Shown: one piece after another, positions 3,081 through 24,081 of the stretch
Layout of the letters: each line of letters starts with the position of its first letter
Position numbering within the stretch: the first letter of the stretch is position 1
From: a virus
DNA: 24,081 nt
Virus record (IMG/VR): IMGVR_UViG_3300005524_000022
Span: 1-24,081 of that record
Reading direction: 5' to 3' (one strand)
Notes under the pieces: model-generated
What the model was told of the DNA's origin: nothing
Database searches by the model: none
The model's input: only the letters and a program-made list of their open reading frames with translations
Translations under genes and position numbers: made by a program

Positions 3081-3109
3081 TTGATTTTTCCGTCGCACTC
3101 CATTATAAT
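3081..3109 (+). promoter_or_regulatory. Early promoter P1 (TTGATT-17-TATAAT)
   Basis: TTGATT at 3081-3086 and TATAAT at 3104-3109, with a 17-bp spacer ending CTCCAT. An A10 tract lies just upstream and could act like an UP element. The leader of about 55 nt contains ACACTCTCTCG, also found in the P4 leader, then the ACGGAAAAGGGG box before the first early gene. Confidence 0.9.
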
Positions 3110-3169
3110 ACATGTATAGGAAAGAAGAAGAGAGAAACACTCTCTCGCAAACGGAAAAGGGGAAAAGCA

Positions 3170-3430
3170 ATGGCAATGTCCGAAGCACAGAAGCAGGCGA
3201 TTCGGGAGTCTCTGAAGAAGTACTACGAGACGCACTCCGGTCCGCGCACCGGGATCGCTTGCGCGGACGAAACGAAAGCGAAGATCCGGGACAGGTTGAA
3301 GGAGTACTACGCAACGAACCCGGGACCGCAGACGGGGAAGCCGATGTCGGACGAGACGAAGGAGAAGATCCGTCAGGCCATGCTGCGACGCAGCCAGCCG
3401 CAGACGAAGGCGAAGGCGAAGCGGAGCTGA
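3170..3430 (+). CDS. NUMOD3-repeat small protein (paralogue 1)
   Basis: 86 residues made almost wholly of a 28-residue tandem repeat (residues 4-31, 32-59, and a partial 60-75) of the form (S/A)(D/E)ETKxKIRxxLxxYYxxxxGPxTG, the pattern of the NUMOD3 DNA-binding motif usually found beside homing-endonuclease domains. Here no nuclease domain is present; a Lys/Arg-rich tail follows. The start ATG at 3170 follows ACGGAAAAGGGG by 7 nt; the frame stays open upstream to the promoter but lacks an SD there. It is the first gene after P1, and its closest relative (6450-6779) is likewise first after P4. A sequence-specific DNA-binding regulator is my inference. A third, shorter member lies at 18987-19298. 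Confidence 0.85.
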   Translation: MAMSEAQKQAIRESLKKYYETHSGPRTGIACADETKAKIRDRLKEYYATNPGPQTGKPMSDETKEKIRQAMLRRSQPQTKAKAKRS

Positions 3431-3440
3431 GCCAGGAGGT

Positions 3441-3470
3441 CGAGCGCCAGACGGTCGGGTCTGGCGCTCG
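3441..3470 (+). other. Intercistronic hairpin 1 (12-bp stem, GGTCGG loop)
   Basis: CGAGCGCCAGAC (3441-3452) pairs perfectly with GTCTGGCGCTCG (3459-3470) around a GGTCGG loop. No U-run follows, so it is not a classic terminator. It forms a homologous cassette with hairpin 2 at 3668-3697, which has a different stem but the same loop, stem length and downstream sequence. An mRNA-processing, stabilising or attenuating element is plausible. Confidence 0.8.
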
Positions 3471-3513
3471 CACTCCGCACTCAGACGATGCGGAAACGGA
3501 AAGGGGACAGCAG

Positions 3514-3657
3514 ATGAGGAAGCTCGCACAGGTCAGGGACGCAGACCGAGACCGCTCGGACGAGATCGACACGGACGATCGGATCTACCTCGCGGAGCTC
3601 GCAAGGCAGTGGGCACTGCGGTCACTGAACGAGAGGCCGGCACTGGTCACGTACTGA
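3514..3657 (+). CDS. Small hypothetical protein (47 aa)
   Basis: Unrecognised. MRKLAQV at the N-terminus, an acidic/basic middle (RDADRDRSDEIDTDD) and a helix-prone C-terminal half (LAELARQWALRSLNERPAL). The ATG at 3514 follows AACGGAAAGGGG by 7 nt, the same box used elsewhere in this region. The frame is open far upstream but without another supported start. It lies in the P1 operon between two hairpin cassettes. The next gene begins similarly (MKRLVQV), suggesting that the cassette duplication included the first codons. Confidence 0.75.
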   Translation: MRKLAQVRDADRDRSDEIDTDDRIYLAELARQWALRSLNERPALVTY

Positions 3658-3667
3658 GCCAGCGCCA

Positions 3668-3697
3668 GAAGAGAGGGACGGTCGGGTCCCTCTCTTC
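3668..3697 (+). other. Intercistronic hairpin 2 (12-bp stem, GGTCGG loop)
   Basis: GAAGAGAGGGAC (3668-3679) pairs perfectly with GTCCCTCTCTTC (3686-3697) around GGTCGG. The stem sequence differs from hairpin 1 except for the three loop-closing pairs (GAC/GTC), yet length, loop and the downstream GCACTCAGA and AACGGA(A/G)AGGGG segments are kept. This looks like covariation that preserves an RNA structure. Confidence 0.8.
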
Positions 3698-3745
3698 GAG
3701 CGCGCACTCAGAGCGAATGCGCGGTAACGGAGAGGGGCAGGTCAG

Positions 3746-3901
3746 ATGAAACGGTTGGTGCAGGTCTTCGAACTCACAGAAGACACGACAGAGGAGGTGT
3801 GCGTTCGGACGGAGTGTCTCACGCTCACCGAGACGGTTCAGAAGTTCGGTCGGTGCGAGGTTCTCACGTCGGAGGGAACACAGCTTCGGGTGTGGGTCTG
3901 A
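3746..3901 (+). CDS. Small hypothetical protein (51 aa)
   Basis: Unrecognised. The start ATG is preceded by AACGGAGAGGGG. The protein is MKRLVQVFELTEDTT... with alternating hydrophobic residues suggesting a small beta fold and two Cys far apart (CVRTEC, then FGRCEV). Its TGA overlaps the ATG of the next gene (TGATG), so the two are probably translationally coupled. Part of the P1 operon. Confidence 0.8.
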   Translation: MKRLVQVFELTEDTTEEVCVRTECLTLTETVQKFGRCEVLTSEGTQLRVWV

Positions 3902-4008
3902 TGAACGGACACGTTCTCTTCGGTCACTGGTGGCACTTGTACGTCATCGGTCACTCGTTCCTTCTCGGTCACTGGTGGTTTGCAGACGCGGTGTTGCACT
4001 ACCGGTAA
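3901..4008 (+). CDS. His/Trp-rich micro-protein with internal repeat (35 aa)
   Basis: Unrecognised, unusually rich in His and Trp. A 15-residue repeat gives LFGHWWH and LLGHWWF with GHV and GHS between them; at the DNA level CGGTCACTGGTGG occurs at 3921 and 3966, with CGGTCACT also at 3948. The hydrophobic stretch could insert in or lie on a membrane, and clustered His could bind metal or heme; both are inference. Start coupled to the previous stop (TGATG). It may be an unusual small membrane peptide, or a spurious but open frame. Confidence 0.6.
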   Translation: MNGHVLFGHWWHLYVIGHSFLLGHWWFADAVLHYR

Positions 4009-4076
4009 CCGGGAGGGAACGGGTCGGCATACGTACAACTGTAAAGGAACAAACGAAACGGAAAGGGGAAGTAACA

Positions 4077-4774: not shown

Positions 4775-4872
4775 TGGCTGCATCCTCGTCTGGCCCGACT
4801 GTAAATCAAGGCGCACCCAGTTCCACAGCCGGTTCCAGTCGGCTCCCAATTCCCTTGAGAGATCACGCTATC

Positions 4873-4981
4873 GATATGCTAAATCAAGCTTCTGTATCCC
4901 GGACGCCCGAAGAGGAGAGAAAATAAGGGAGAAAAGGAGAGGAGAGGGCAGGGGGGAAGACGGTCCTTGATTTAGCATATC
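4873..4981. repeat. 16-bp perfect inverted repeat in a gene-free stretch
   Basis: GATATGCTAAATCAAG at 4873-4888 is exactly inverted as CTTGATTTAGCATATC at 4966-4981, with 77 bp between. Each arm, read towards the outside, starts with CTTGATTTA, which resembles the -35 part of the window's promoters but lacks a TATAAT. A third TAAATCAAG lies at 4802-4810. The 77-bp interior includes a long purine-rich run (about 4906-4963). The surrounding 4725-5020 contains no credible gene. It could be a remnant of an excised element, regulator half-sites or an origin-type structure. Confidence 0.8.
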
Positions 4982-5020
4982 TATTCCGGTGCGCGCCTAT
5001 CAATAAATCTTGGAACGCAC

Positions 5021-5049
5021 TTGATTTCGTGAGGCGCTTCCATTATAAT
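5021..5049 (+). promoter_or_regulatory. Early promoter P2
   Basis: TTGATT 5021-5026 and TATAAT 5044-5049, 17-bp spacer beginning TCGTG and ending TTCCAT. The ATG at 5056 lies 6 nt after the -10, so transcription should start at or beside the start codon (leaderless mRNA). Confidence 0.92.
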
Positions 5050-6449: not shown

Positions 6450-6779
6450 ATGGCAATGACCGAAGAGCAGAAGGAGGCCATCCGTCAGGGACTGAAGGCG
6501 TACTACAAGTCTCACCCAGGTCCGATGACCGGCCGACACCTGTCGGACGAAACGAAAGCGAAGATCCGGGAGAGGCTGGTGGAGTTCTACCAGTCACACG
6601 ACGGGCCTCAGAAGGGCAAGCCGATGTCCGAAGAGACGAAGGAGAAGATCCGTCAGGCCATGCTGCGTCGCAGCAAGATCGTGACGGAGGCGACTCCGGA
6701 AGTCGAAGCGGTCACGGAAGAGACGACGGTCTCGGCGGAGTCTCGATCGCAGCGGAGGCGGCAGAGGCAGGCTGCGTGA
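6450..6779 (+). CDS. NUMOD3-repeat small protein (paralogue 2)
   Basis: 109 residues. It closely matches paralogue 1 (3170-3430): MAMTEEQKEAIRQGLKAYY, then two more 28-residue NUMOD3-type repeats (SDETKAKIRERL, SEETKEKIRQAMLRRS), followed by a Thr/Glu-rich linker and a basic tail (SRSQRRRQRQAA). No nuclease domain. ATG at 6450 after AAGGAGACAGAACAGCA. It is first after P4, and promoter, leader motif and gene are all duplicated relative to P1, followed in both cases by intercistronic hairpins. Likely a DNA-binding protein; the target is unknown. Confidence 0.85.
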   Translation: MAMTEEQKEAIRQGLKAYYKSHPGPMTGRHLSDETKAKIRERLVEFYQSHDGPQKGKPMSEETKEKIRQAMLRRSKIVTEATPEVEAVTEETTVSAESRSQRRRQRQAA

Positions 6780-6782
6780 GAG

Positions 6783-6847
6783 CCGGCTCGACGGAGCCGG
6801 TGGGCGTCCGGGTTCGATATCCCCTTACCGTTTCCCGGGCGTCCACC
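6783..6847 (+). other. Tandem intercistronic hairpins after NUMOD3 paralogue 2
   Basis: CCGGCTC (6783-6789) pairs with GAGCCGG (6794-6800) around GACG. Immediately after, GGTGGGCGTCCGGG (6799-6812) can pair with CCCGGGCGTCCACC (6834-6847), allowing two G-U pairs, around a 21-nt loop. No U-tract follows. The position matches hairpin 1 after NUMOD3 paralogue 1, and an AACGGAAAGGGG box follows at 6864-6875. Confidence 0.65.
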
Positions 6848-6886
6848 AGCTCTGTCGACGATCAACGGAAAGGGGTACACTATCAG

Positions 6887-12961: not shown

Positions 12962-12990
12962 TTGATTTCGTGGGTGCGTTTCACTATAAT
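12962..12990 (+). promoter_or_regulatory. Early promoter P7
   Basis: TTGATT 12962-12967, TATAAT 12985-12990, 17-bp spacer TCGTG...TTTCAC. It begins 7 bp after the stop of the Rpf-like gene. The leader contains CAAGAGGTACAA, also in the P9 leader, then AACGGAAGGG. Confidence 0.93.
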
Positions 12991-19766: not shown

Positions 19767-21110
19767 CTCGTCCTTCGAGATGATCAGCTCAAGGACGCGC
19801 GATGGCTTCTTGATGTGAGACGCGGAGGGCTGTTCAACGATCCTGGAACCGGTAAGTCGTTTCCAGCCATCACGGCCGCACTCGAACTTCGTGACTACGC
19901 AGTGACGCTCATCGTCGCACCGCAGTATCTGTTGTGGAACTGGCGAGACATGCTCGTCGACTTCGGTGTGCCAGAGAGTGAGATCGGCATTTGCATCGGT
20001 GAGAGGGCCGAACGCAACGCGATCCTCCAACGTGAGTACGACTTCACGCTCGTCAACTACGAGATGTTCAGCTACGCCGATCGCTTCCCGACACTGCTGA
20101 AGCGGCAGTGGGATCTCGTCATCTGCGACGAGTCGCACAGGTTGCGAGGTCGGAACTCGGCCATGACGAAGGCGGCCTACCGACTCAAGTGCGACAGGTT
20201 CTGGGCTCTGACCGGAACTCCACTCGTCACTAACGCAGCTGACGTCTTTCCGATTCTCAAGATCATCGACAAGGATCGCTTTCGCTCGTATTGGCGCTTC
20301 GTCGATGAGTGGTGCAAGACGGAGACGAATCCGTGGGCGACGATCGTCAGAGGTCCGAAGACACCCGAGGACTACTTTCGCATGCTGCAGGGCTACTTCA
20401 TCATGCGTCCGTTCGACTCCATTCCGGAACTGAAGGGCGTCACGGCTGTTGAGCACGCTCCGTTCTACGTCACACTTCCGAAGTCCGTCATGGCCGCGCA
20501 CAAGAGAGCCAAGAAGGAGTACGTCCTCGAGCATCCGACAATGGAGAAGATCGAGGTCACATCCGCAGGAGCCATGCTGTCGTACCTCCGACGCATGTGT
20601 TCGTGGCCGCCGACGCAAGAGCAGCCGAAGTGGAAGGTTCTCAAGGACCTTCTCCTCGAGAACGGCGACGAGCAGATTATCGTCTTCTGCTGGTTCCACG
20701 ACACGGTTGACGGACTCGTCGAGCGCATACGTCAAGAGGTTCGCGGCACACGTCCAGTCGAAGTCGTCACGGGCAGCTTCAGTGCCGTGCAGAAGGACGA
20801 AGCCATTCGACGTCACCGACTCTCGTCCAACGGCATTCTCATCGCCAACATCGCGGCCTGCAACGAGGGAGTCAACCTCCAGACCGGTCACATCGTCGTC
20901 TTCTACGAGCAGGACTACCTGCGTACGGCCAACGAGCAAGCCATCGCTCGCTGCAAGCGAATGGGACAGGAACAAGTCGTGCAGGTCTACAACATCGTTG
21001 CTCGCAAGACGGTAGAGGAGGCGGTGTATCGCACGCAGCTCGGTCACAAGAGAGTCATCCACCAGCCGATTCGGCAGCTCATGCACGAGCTGTACGCTAT
21101 CCCGGACTGA
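19758..21110 (+). CDS. SNF2-like superfamily 2 helicase
   Basis: 450 residues. Q-motif-like LRDDQLKDARWLL, Walker A DPGTGKS (28-34), Walker B DESH (124-127), motif III ALTGTP, and in the C-terminal RecA fold ANIAACNEGVNLQ and EQAIARCKRMGQ...VQVYNIVARKTVEEAVY. This is the SNF2/Rad54-like class of dsDNA translocase, short and lacking obvious extra domains, frequent in phage replication modules where it may remodel forks or recombination intermediates. ATG at 19758 lies 7 nt after GGAGCAGAGCG. A 482-residue antisense frame over this gene is a codon-bias shadow. Confidence 0.92.
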   Translation: MSDLVLRDDQLKDARWLLDVRRGGLFNDPGTGKSFPAITAALELRDYAVTLIVAPQYLLWNWRDMLVDFGVPESEIGICIGERAERNAILQREYDFTLVNYEMFSYADRFPTLLKRQWDLVICDESHRLRGRNSAMTKAAYRLKCDRFWALTGTPLVTNAADVFPILKIIDKDRFRSYWRFVDEWCKTETNPWATIVRGPKTPEDYFRMLQGYFIMRPFDSIPELKGVTAVEHAPFYVTLPKSVMAAHKRAKKEYVLEHPTMEKIEVTSAGAMLSYLRRMCSWPPTQEQPKWKVLKDLLLENGDEQIIVFCWFHDTVDGLVERIRQEVRGTRPVEVVTGSFSAVQKDEAIRRHRLSSNGILIANIAACNEGVNLQTGHIVVFYEQDYLRTANEQAIARCKRMGQEQVVQVYNIVARKTVEEAVYRTQLGHKRVIHQPIRQLMHELYAIPD

Positions 21111-21170
21111 CTAGTGGGCCGCCGGCACACTCCTTTCCGAGTGTACCTCTACAAGCCGGCGGCCCACTAG
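21111..21170 (+). other. Large intergenic hairpin, 16-bp perfect stem with inner hairpin
   Basis: CTAGTGGGCCGCCGGC (21111-21126) pairs exactly with GCCGGCGGCCCACTAG (21155-21170). Inside, ACACTC (21127-21132) pairs with GAGTGT (21139-21144) around CTTTCC. It begins directly after the helicase stop. No U-run follows, so it is not a standard terminator. It could be an mRNA processing or stability element, a protein-binding site or a replication structure. Confidence 0.85.
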
Positions 21171-21190
21171 TTCGTTCGAGAGGAGGGAGG

Positions 21191-21427
21191 ATGCCGAGTT
21201 TCCGTGTATCGGACGGTCGGAGACCACGAAAGAAGCGGTGGCACGCACGAGCCAAGAGAGGTGTAATCGAGTGGAGTCTCGGTTACTTCACAACGAGGGA
21301 GGAAGCACTTGAGCGAGAAAGAGGGTTCAACGAGCACTGGCCGAGGCACAAGCTCGGCCACGAAGGGCGGAACCAAAGAGACGCTGTGTCAGGAAGCGGA
21401 TCGACTGATTCACAGCGTCAAAGCTGA
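21191..21427 (+). CDS. Small AP2/integrase-arm-like DNA-binding protein (78 aa)
   Basis: Residues ~15-50 (KRWHARAKRGVIEWSLGYFTTREEALERERGFNEHW) follow the three-strand-plus-helix pattern of AP2-like and integrase arm-binding domains: W at the start, G-x-F turn, TREEA helix. The rest is basic then low-complexity. ATG at 21191 follows GGAGGGAGG. The last 119 nt overlap the next gene. Likely DNA-binding; no catalytic domain. Confidence 0.7.
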   Translation: MPSFRVSDGRRPRKKRWHARAKRGVIEWSLGYFTTREEALERERGFNEHWPRHKLGHEGRNQRDAVSGSGSTDSQRQS

Positions 21428-21653
21428 GGAGTACGGTCACCCGAAGGACAACTTCCGACGTCTCGCGGTCCTGTGGACGGAGTATCTCAAACAGAAGTAC
21501 CCGTCCGTCCAAGTAGTCGTGGATGAGGACGACGTCATCAACATGTTCATCCTCCACAAGGTCGCTCGATCCATGCAGGTTCCGACGAGAGACACGTACG
21601 TAGATGTGGCTGGATATGCCGGTTGCTGGGCTCGCATCCACGAAGGAGAGTGA
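21309..21653 (+). CDS. DUF6378-like protein (114 aa)
   Basis: From about residue 25: LCQEADRLIHSVKAEEYGHP, NFRRLAVLWTEYL, EDDVINMFILHKVARSMQ, TYVDVAGYAGCWAR. This order (YGHPxxNF...LWxxYL...DVxxxxxxxKxAR...DxxGYAxC) is the DUF6378-type pattern found widely in actinophages, of unknown function, possibly nucleotide-pyrophosphatase-like (MazG-related helices). The TTG at 21309 has an excellent SD (GAGGGAGGAAG, 3-4 nt), so it is used despite the long overlap with the previous gene. Confidence 0.8.
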   Translation: MSEKEGSTSTGRGTSSATKGGTKETLCQEADRLIHSVKAEEYGHPKDNFRRLAVLWTEYLKQKYPSVQVVVDEDDVINMFILHKVARSMQVPTRDTYVDVAGYAGCWARIHEGE

Positions 21654-21655
21654 CT

Positions 21656-21829
21656 ATGCTGCTAGCCACATTCATTCGCCAGCTCCAAGTTCTGGCCGAG
21701 ACAGATAACGTCGGTCCGGCCGCTCACGTCTTCTTCGAGCCCGCACAGAACTGGACGGAGGTTCAGAGTACGGGTTGGAGCGGACAGATCGGTGGAGTCA
21801 TCCTGACGTCTAGACCGATTGCGAGCTGA
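21656..21829 (+). CDS. Small hypothetical protein (57 aa)
   Basis: Unrecognised. MLLATFIRQLQVLAETDNVGPAAHVFFEPAQ..., ending beta-like (GQIGGVILTSRPIAS). ATG 21656 lies just after the previous stop, with GAAGGAG upstream as SD. Three bp separate it from the nuclease gene. Confidence 0.75.
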   Translation: MLLATFIRQLQVLAETDNVGPAAHVFFEPAQNWTEVQSTGWSGQIGGVILTSRPIAS

Positions 21830-21832
21830 ACC

Positions 21833-22939
21833 ATGCCGATCACGACCGTCACTACAATGCAAGCCTTCCTACGTTGTCGTCGAGCCTGGTGGCTACAGTC
21901 TCCAACTGGACTTGGTCTCGAGCCGGACCGCCCACCCGCACTCGCTCTCAGCTTCGGTACGGCTGTCCACGCCGGTCTGGAAGCCAACGCTCGAGGTGAG
22001 GACTGGAGACGAGCGCTTGACGAGGTCCTCGTCCACCAGCGACAAGAGGTCTACGAGGCCTATTACAACAAGGTCGGAGCTCCAATGGCACCGGAAGAGG
22101 CGCTCAAGCTGAAGGACTCGGAGAAGCTAGCCGTGTCCGTCCTCGAGCACTACTTCGAGAGGTACTCGGAGGACCACCCACTCGGACAGACATGGGAGTA
22201 CATCCAACCGGAAGTCGGCTTCGAGATTCCGCTCGACTACCTCGGTGAGGCAGCAGAAGGTTGGCTTCTGCGTGGCTCCATCGACGGTTTGGCCGAACAC
22301 AAGAAGACGGGAGCCATCGGCGGTGTCGAGCACAAGACGTACTCGCAGAAGACGAACGAGGCTGCTCTCCAGATGGACGACCAGCTGACGGGCTACTTCT
22401 TCGCCGTCTGGAAGCTCTTCGGTGTCTTTCCCGAGTCGTTCCTCTACGACGGCATTGCCAAGAAGCTGCCGATCGAGCCGAGACTGCTTCAGAGCGGCAA
22501 GTTGTCGAAGGAGTGGATCGACACGACGGAAGGAGTGTATCGGCGCACGTTGGCCAAGCACGGTCTCGATGCGGCAGACTACGCGGACATCTTGGCCCGC
22601 CTAGCCGCTCGAGACAAGGAGCCGCAGACGCCGTTCTTTACGCGCTACCGCATCTACGTCCCGGAGCACAGTGTGAGACTGTGGGAACGCAACCTCTACT
22701 GGCGCATTCGCGACATGGACGAGGTCGTCTTCACGAACGGTGAGACGGCCTATCCCAACGTACCCTGGACCGGTTGCTGGGATTGCGGAGTGCAGGACCT
22801 GTGCAAGGCCATCCAGTTCGACGAGGACGTTCACGGCATTATTTCGCAGTTCTACCGCGAGAACCACGTCGGTCACGCCTCCTACACGCGAGAGGCTTCG
22901 CGACCGGGTGAGGTGACTCTGAGGCGAAAGAATCCTTGA
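21833..22939 (+). CDS. Cas4/AddB-like PD-(D/E)XK nuclease with Fe-S cysteines
   Basis: 368 residues. C15 in FLRCRRAWW, H46 in GTAVHAGLE, D151 in RGSIDGLAE, E166-H-K168 in GGVEHKTYS and Q184 in DDQLTGYFF form the RecB-type nuclease motifs (H, D, ExK, QxxxY). C315, C318 and C324 (GCWDCGVQDLC) complete the four-cysteine set that holds an iron-sulfur cluster in Cas4, AddB and related phage exonucleases. Such enzymes resect double-stranded ends for recombination. ATG at 21833; the following Sak4-like and DUF669 genes support a recombination module. Confidence 0.93.
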   Translation: MPITTVTTMQAFLRCRRAWWLQSPTGLGLEPDRPPALALSFGTAVHAGLEANARGEDWRRALDEVLVHQRQEVYEAYYNKVGAPMAPEEALKLKDSEKLAVSVLEHYFERYSEDHPLGQTWEYIQPEVGFEIPLDYLGEAAEGWLLRGSIDGLAEHKKTGAIGGVEHKTYSQKTNEAALQMDDQLTGYFFAVWKLFGVFPESFLYDGIAKKLPIEPRLLQSGKLSKEWIDTTEGVYRRTLAKHGLDAADYADILARLAARDKEPQTPFFTRYRIYVPEHSVRLWERNLYWRIRDMDEVVFTNGETAYPNVPWTGCWDCGVQDLCKAIQFDEDVHGIISQFYRENHVGHASYTREASRPGEVTLRRKNP

Positions 22940-22946
22940 AAACCTC

Positions 22947-22975
22947 TTGTGAGTTTCGGGTAACTTCACTATAAT
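22947..22975 (+). promoter_or_regulatory. Promoter P10, variant
   Basis: TATAAT at 22970-22975 with a 17-bp spacer to TTGTGA (22947-22952), a poorer -35 than the other copies. Its -35/spacer includes GTGAGTTTCG (22949-22958), identical to part of the twin palindromes at 2769-2778. The leader CAACAAGAGGAG resembles those of P7 and P9. Confidence 0.8.
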
Positions 22976-23003
22976 CTCAACAAGAGGAGAAGGAGGAAAC
23001 GCC

Positions 23004-23747
23004 GTGGCAGACATCTCTGACCGCTTCCTTCGCGCGTCGGATGTATCCGACAAGTGGGGACTCAATGTCGTACTCTTCGGTCCGAACGGTGCTGGGAAGA
23101 CGACGCTAGCGTCCACTGCGCAGGATTCGGAGTTCGGACGAGACGTCATCTTCTGTGACGTCGAAGGCGGTACGCGGTCGATCGCCGACCGAGAGGACAT
23201 TCAGGTCTTCGTCCCGGACCGGTGGAGCGAGATCGCGGACTTCTACGCCTTTCTCGCCGGTCAACAGCACCCGTACCGCACTATCGTGCTCGACTCGCTG
23301 GCGGAGCTCTACCACTACGCCATCAAGGACGTCATGGGTGGAGCGTCCGGGGCACCTCAACTTCAGCACTACGGAGAAGCCAACGACCGTCTGGCAACGC
23401 TCGTTCGCAACTTCAAGCGGTTCTCACGAGAACTCGGATGGAACGTCATCTTCACGGCTCCGGCCGTCGAAGTCAAGGACGACATCACCGGGATGGTCCT
23501 CACGCGCGTCGACCTGACGCCGGGAGCGGCCAAGAGTGTCTTCCAGATCGTCGATACGATGGCGTACCTGGGAGTCGAAAGCAAGAGAGAGGGAGGAACC
23601 CTCCAGACGCGGAGATACCTGCAGATCGGACCGACGGGCAACATCACGGCAAAGCACAGGCAGCCGCGATCGGGTAACCCGCTACCGACGCGCATCACAG
23701 ACCCGTCTCTGGTGAGCATCCTCGCACAGAGGAAGGAGAGCAAGTGA
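23004..23747 (+). CDS. Sak4-like RecA-fold ATPase (single-strand annealing/recombination)
   Basis: 247 residues. Walker A GPNGAGKT (26-33), CDVEGG after the second strand, Walker B TIVLDSL (93-99), and WNVIFTAPAVE as a later core strand. The short RecA-like core without the N- and C-terminal RecA domains fits the phage Sak4/AAA_24 group, which anneals or exchanges single strands with a partner SSB. GTG at 23004 follows AAGGAGG. GTGA overlap with the next gene, which is that partner type. Confidence 0.9.
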   Translation: MADISDRFLRASDVSDKWGLNVVLFGPNGAGKTTLASTAQDSEFGRDVIFCDVEGGTRSIADREDIQVFVPDRWSEIADFYAFLAGQQHPYRTIVLDSLAELYHYAIKDVMGGASGAPQLQHYGEANDRLATLVRNFKRFSRELGWNVIFTAPAVEVKDDITGMVLTRVDLTPGAAKSVFQIVDTMAYLGVESKREGGTLQTRRYLQIGPTGNITAKHRQPRSGNPLPTRITDPSLVSILAQRKESK

Positions 23748-24081
23748 GTCCAGTAACTCTCGACTTCAGCAACGTCGAGGACAGTCAGTTCAAGCAGCTG
23801 CCATCCGGTGACTACGAGTGCACCATCTTCGCGATCAACACGAAGAAGGCGAAGGGAGACGGGTCCGAGTACCTCGAGTTCGTCTTCAAGCTCGCAGACT
23901 CCGAGCAGCGGTTGTGGAGAAACTACTCTCTGAAGCCGCAGGCTCTGTGGGCGCTCAAGCAGCTCCTCATCCGTCTCGGCTTCAGCGAGGACGAGGTCGG
24001 CGGACAGTTTCAGTTCAACGAGCAGGAACTCCTCGGTACGAAGGTCATCTGCCGCGTGAAGGAGACCGAGTACCAGGGTCG
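23744..24081 (+). CDS. DUF669-type ssDNA-binding protein (partial)
   Basis: About 112 residues before the right edge. SPVTLDFSNVEDSQFKQLPSGDYEC, then KAKGDGSEYLEFVFKL and RLWRNYSLKPQALWALKQLLIRLG match the DUF669 pattern, which in phages accompanies Sak4-like or RecT-like recombinases and behaves as an OB-fold single-strand-binding protein. The GTG start overlaps the stop of the Sak4-like gene (GTGA), supporting a functional pair. The C-terminus is missing. Confidence 0.85.
   Translation, partial: MSPVTLDFSNVEDSQFKQLPSGDYECTIFAINTKKAKGDGSEYLEFVFKLADSEQRLWRNYSLKPQALWALKQLLIRLGFSEDEVGGQFQFNEQELLGTKVICRVKETEYQG

Follow-up and report, generated by a model that had tools for sequence, protein, structure and literature searches.

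Two 58-nt hairpins with identical base and loop modules at successive stop codons of an uncultured phage

In the early mRNA of phage T7, RNase III cuts at five sites, and the R1.1 RNA is about 60 nt long (PMC4858673). Intergenic stem-loops also process and stabilise the transcripts of the cip-cel operon; these GC-rich structures are proposed to set cleavage sites and stoichiometry (PMC10311766). Actinophages of Clusters K and EF carry a conserved box at the SD position (SAS), with an inverted repeat (ESAS) just upstream of it at some genes; the ESAS repeats have a sequence in common, and RNA pairing gained little support in the authors' analysis (PMC3203893, PMC7302621). We found no paper in the literature that gives actinophage gene-junction hairpins a tested function.

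We analysed a 24,081-nucleotide stretch of virus DNA (the window), the record of an uncultured phage. A terminase small subunit is encoded on the minus strand, and after it the plus strand carries a long series of small genes, a RepB-type primase, an SNF2 helicase, a PD-(D/E)XK exonuclease and a Sak4-type annealing protein. Weak protein similarity suggests that the host may be actinobacterial. The contig IMGVR_UViG_3300027968_000051 matches window positions 20436-24081 at 100% and adds 19.5 kb; scans of this phage over 43.6 kb cover the window plus this extension contig. Gene boundaries were taken from an in-house gene caller. The features at the locus are as follows.

3081-3109, plus strand: sigma-70-like promoter TTGATTT...TATAAT at the operon head, from a consensus scan
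3170-3430, plus strand: gene 1, an 86-aa NUMOD3-like protein, with its TGA within the basal arm of hairpin 1
3427-3484, plus strand: hairpin 1, 58 nt, with basal module 3427-3435/3476-3484, variable stem 3436-3449/3462-3475 and apical module GACGGTCGGGTC at 3450-3461
3474-3494, plus strand: predicted alternative helix of copy 1, TCCGCA (3474-3479) with TGCGGA (3489-3494), which excludes the middle and basal stems
3495-3506, plus strand: start-associated SD box AACGGAAAGGGG
3514-3657, plus strand: gene 2, a 47-aa ORF without family match
3654-3711, plus strand: hairpin 2, 58 nt, of the same architecture, with basal module 3654-3662/3703-3711 and apical module 3677-3688
3701-3723, plus strand: predicted alternative helix of copy 2, CGCGCA (3701-3706) with TGCGCG (3718-3723)
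3726-3737, plus strand: start-associated SD box AACGGAGAGGGG
3746-3901, plus strand: gene 3, a 51-aa ORF without family match

The first-pass annotation had described 12-bp perfect hairpins following two successive stop codons. These are real, but their extent was understated, since each is the upper part of a 58-nt structure that includes the stop TGA. Both hairpins begin within the last sense codon of the upstream gene, hold the TGA (3428-3430 and 3655-3657) inside the basal arm, and share a common fold of 5 bp, a 3x3 loop, 4 bp, a 2x2 loop, 12 bp and a 6-nt loop. Predicted dG was -40.8 for hairpin 1 and -39.3 for hairpin 2 (z -6.3), and none of 200 shuffles was as stable. The basal 5-bp stem is invariant between the copies, and is weak for copy 1 in longer context. 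In the 43.6 kb, hairpins 1 and 2 were the only places where 12 bp pair perfectly around a loop of 3-15 nt, and when about 1.66 Mb of retrieved DNA was scanned for the full 12/4/5 architecture, only these two appeared among the scores listed. A search of the window against Rfam 15 gave 0 matches at the gathering threshold.

Thirty nucleotides, in CTGAGCCAG, GACGGTCGGGTC and CGCACTCAG, are identical in both copies and make up the basal and apical modules. The 12 pairs between the modules agree in only 3 cases, which is chance level. When all 21 pairs were compared, 9 were changed on both sides, none was broken, and there was no G-U pair. The earlier observation that the stems differ, pair perfectly and keep a fixed GGTCGG loop was thus borne out, with compensation at 9/9 changed pairs, in two copies within one genome. 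The data do not support the further view that the whole forms a duplicated cassette extending through the SD sequence and the first codons. Flanking DNA is identical at 7-12 of 30 positions, at or near chance, and the downstream proteins are unrelated: the similar first codons (MRKLAQV and MKRLVQV) gave no BLASTP alignment and do not reflect homology, and homology of the 47-aa and 51-aa proteins was rejected for want of any BLASTP similarity. The locus is therefore better described as a recurring motif than as a visibly duplicated cassette. No simple recent duplication is visible, and the copies consist of two modules spaced by a sequence-free stem of fixed length.

The sequence AACGGA(A/G)AGGGG, which had been counted as part of the cassette, is not specific to it. 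Sequences close to it stand ahead of about nine starts in the window and of one in the extension, so that, as with SAS, many genes have a conserved box at their SD position; AACGGAAAGGGG marks start sites throughout the genome and lies outside the hairpin motif. Its consensus differs from GGGATAGGAGCCC and GGGAAAGGACCCC. Boxes of the AACGGAAAGGGG type were located on the plus strand at 3150, 3495, 3726, 4057, 5555, 6864, 8155, 10583 and 13011, giving this phage, which is not related to Clusters K and EF, a signal of the SAS type. The inverted repeats just upstream resemble ESAS in position. However, ESAS repeats are sequence-conserved over 17 bp, whereas here 3 of 12 pairs agree, and the stems differ fully while pairing perfectly.

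Ten near-identical promoters of the form TTGATTT(CG)...TATAAT, with a 17-base spacer, are present in the 43.6 kb. The copies lie on the plus strand at 3081, 5021, 5473, 6316, 8110, 10533, 12962, 15478 and 19227 in the window and at 33724 in window-plus-extension coordinates; over 77 bp the extension copy and the one at 12962 hardly differ. An inverted repeat at 4870-4984 (ATCGATATGCTAAATCAAG / CTTGATTTAGCATATCTAT, 95% complementary, 77 nt apart), just 5' of the promoter at 5021, contains the -35-like CTTGATTT. Between genes 1, 2 and 3, consensus and terminator scans predicted neither a promoter nor a U-run terminator. A leaky, U-less terminator or attenuator that reduces the levels of downstream genes is very unlikely here: hairpins 1 and 2 have no U-run and were not called by the terminator scan, and the downstream genes lack a promoter of their own. 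What speaks for such an element comes from actinophages: many terminator-like hairpins separate the genes of a single operon in Amigo, and in Parvaparticeps one hairpin that lacks a U-run has a TGA in its base and is followed by an SD sequence and ATG.

Three other large hairpins were detected.

3950-4028, plus strand: hairpin 3, overlapping the end and stop of a 35-aa ORF (3901-4008) and followed by the SD box at 4057
6788-6858, plus strand: hairpin 4, between the stop of a NUMOD3 paralogue (6777-6779) and the SD box at 6864
21103-21178, plus strand: hairpin 5, overlapping the SNF2-helicase stop (21108-21110) and preceding an HNH-like ORF at 21191

All three are at gene ends and are unrelated in sequence to hairpins 1 and 2. 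For hairpin 3, dG was -49.8 (z -9.2) on the sense strand versus -31.0 (z -4.2) on the antisense strand; the corresponding values for hairpin 4 were -50.4 (z -6.1) and -44.1 (z -4.7), and hairpin 5 had a dG of -52.6 (z -9.1). The HNH-like ORF matched phrog_24751 with an E value of 1.6e-4. Hairpin 3, which belongs to the same operon as hairpins 1 and 2, is far more stable on the sense strand, since its G-U pairs can form on that strand alone, and this points to a structure made as RNA. Among 81 gene ends, the stop windows of hairpins 5, 4, 1 and 2 were the four most stable, although the enrichment at gene ends is modest (binomial P 0.009 at a 1% threshold) and some promoterless gaps carry no hairpin. 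When T7 was put through the same scan as a positive control, its top-ranked gene ends adjoined known RNase III sites, which calibrates the scan. Within a coding region of the extension contig, a further, very stable hairpin was seen at about 24777-24840 in window-plus-extension coordinates (z -6.3 sense, -7.1 antisense).

For hairpins 1 and 2 both strands fold equally well, with minus-strand dG values of -41.6 and -41.8. Because of this, the two by themselves could also be explained by a DNA-level palindrome, that is, a site for primase or for recombination, or arms whose identity is maintained by templated correction, without an RNA role. The lack of any G-U pair among 42 pair cells fits such an explanation, as does the RepB-primase-like domain encoded by the phage. 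It is nevertheless highly improbable in our estimate, given that the hairpins are placed exactly at stop codons and ahead of SD boxes and that hairpin 3 close by folds with a strong sense bias owing to its G-U pairs. The conclusion drawn earlier, that RNA structure is under selection, is thus well supported for the two copies by the chance-level stem with perfect pairing, the same loop and base, and the sense-biased hairpin 3, with the qualification that hairpins 1 and 2 alone would also suit a palindrome. Both the palindrome and the U-less terminator are less likely than intercistronic punctuation, a dedicated binding site or a ribosome-gated switch.

We consider it about an even chance (roughly 50%) that hairpins 1 and 2 are RNA elements that punctuate a polycistronic early mRNA between its cistrons, as processing or stabilising signals. 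Each hairpin would form at the stop of one small gene, just 5' of the SD box of the next. Transcription would run through the hairpins, and the double-stranded, RNase III-type signal would separate and protect the neighbouring messages, which could give adjacent genes different expression levels. The same 58-nt architecture in both copies, the 9/9 compensation, the position at the stop codon and the other gene-end hairpins favour this reading. So do the chance-level middle stem between identical modules, the sense bias of hairpin 3, the lack of a predicted promoter or U-run terminator between genes 1, 2 and 3, the T7 control, and the precedents of T7 early mRNA and the cip-cel operon. Standing against it are covariation in two copies only, the invariant basal stem, the modest gene-end enrichment and the promoterless gaps that are free of hairpins. 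The structures are irregular intercistronic hairpins of about two helix turns (58 nt, 21 bp, two symmetric internal loops), as in an RNase III signal. They also resemble the T7 sites (R0.3 to R1.3 and the late R sites), which are intercistronic hairpins of about 60 nt with internal loops, in early polycistronic phage mRNA and directly 5' of the next SD. Unlike the T7 sites, the two copies here have the very same loop and basal sequences and enclose the stop codon in the stem. The cip-cel stem-loops belong, by contrast, to a cellular operon with mapped ends, and the part of the report cited here describes no conserved loop module (PMC10311766).

Processing alone does not explain the identical modules, because RNase III does not depend on a conserved sequence in the loop or internal loops. 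The punctuation signal probably also has a sequence-specific binder for the identical basal module and apical loop, and a processing site, a stabiliser and a protein-binding RNA, the functions first proposed, all remain candidates. That the hairpins serve chiefly as a binding site is rather improbable: a specific RNA-binding protein or trans RNA would recognise the GGUCGG loop together with the CCA/GCA internal loop, held at a fixed spacing, and act as a repressor, antiterminator or protector. The loop, its closing pairs and the 3x3 internal loop are identical, while the intervening stem is at chance level and of equal length, as would be expected for such a reader. However, there are just two sites in 43.6 kb and no candidate protein, and the excess of conservation at unpaired over paired sites is not significant alone (P 0.13).

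Translation of the upstream gene might also act through the hairpin. We considered a termination-gated switch, in which a ribosome at the TGA of the basal arm would alter initiation or decay of gene N+1 according to translation of gene N. The ribosome would cover approximately positions 1-15 of the hairpin and open the basal and middle stems, and the freed 3' arm would pair with the spacer as a 6-bp hairpin adjoining the SD box. The alternative helix occupies positions 48-53 of either copy, a shared register; it includes two compensated pairs and is lost when the spacers are swapped. When the stop region was masked in silico as though a ribosome covered it, almost all pairs of the helix, in copy 1 and copy 2 alike, had a pairing probability of 0.9 or more. 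Shuffled spacers yielded the helix in both copies at a frequency of 2.5e-5 (1.4e-4 for any shared register), the first figure being too favourable because the two spacers share a core. The helix was found post hoc, however, and the SD box is free in either state; a competitor helix was looked for at hairpins 3-5 and none was seen, and copy 1 prefers a third fold in longer context. We hold the switch to be rather improbable on this evidence. Quite unlikely is a combined form, in which a reusable two-module RNA motif would work as a cistron switch, with the ribosome opening the lower half, a competing helix forming by the SD box, and a loop-reading factor setting cleavage or translation of the next gene.

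The punctuation reading, like the others, draws its covariation from two copies, since no further copy was found. Exact-module patterns, with matches checked for a stem around GGTCGG, gave no further copy in GTDB genomes, nor among the matches listed in IMG/VR. A covariance model built from both hairpins recovered only the two known copies in the window, the extension and about 80 polymerase-related contigs, and again over 50 whole records. A phage BLASTN search with 1.1 kb around the hairpins gave no match, a terminase small-subunit search gave no relative, and helicase and polymerase searches returned the same virus or else proteins at no more than about 33% identity. In INPHARED or IMG/VR we found no close relative of this phage, and further examples in relatives were therefore not obtained; this lack is down to the collections covered and to the use of exact patterns. 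The D3/D4 repeat proved to be a paralogue of the NUMOD3-like gene, and the hairpin there is unrelated in sequence.

Hairpins of this general kind are found in actinophages, where gene ends with z <= -4 numbered 7/52 in Parvaparticeps and 18/68 in Amigo. In both phages, as here, a large hairpin lies right 3' of a stop and is followed by an SD sequence and ATG. The present layout, with TGA in the base and no U-run, recurs in one Parvaparticeps hairpin, so that hairpins of this sort are not confined to the phage studied here. Most of the gaps listed for Amigo have U-runs and are terminator-like, and the hairpins of Amigo and Parvaparticeps do not share their loops with hairpins 1 and 2. In hairpins 1 and 2 the sequence-specific parts, base and loop, are set apart from a stem of fixed length whose sequence is free, which makes them well suited to testing whether such hairpins act through cleavage, protein binding or refolding driven by the ribosome; if true, the punctuation reading would supply a rule by which phages tune neighbouring genes in one message.

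Some further features of this phage were noted. The small NUMOD3-like paralogues at 3170-3430 and 6450-6779 (the latter matching PF07460 NUMOD3 at 28.8 bits) each have a large hairpin 3' of them, the two hairpins being unrelated, and a third look-alike was judged by eye in the extension contig. ARAGORN called a 95-nt tRNA-Ile (gat) at 506-600 on the minus strand, which may be a false positive given its odd length. The extension contig also carries genes for a radical SAM protein, GTP cyclohydrolase I, QueC and a PTPS/QueD-type protein (L023:4988-6279, L023:10885-11574, L024:1056-1568), which suggests 7-deazaguanine DNA modification in this phage.
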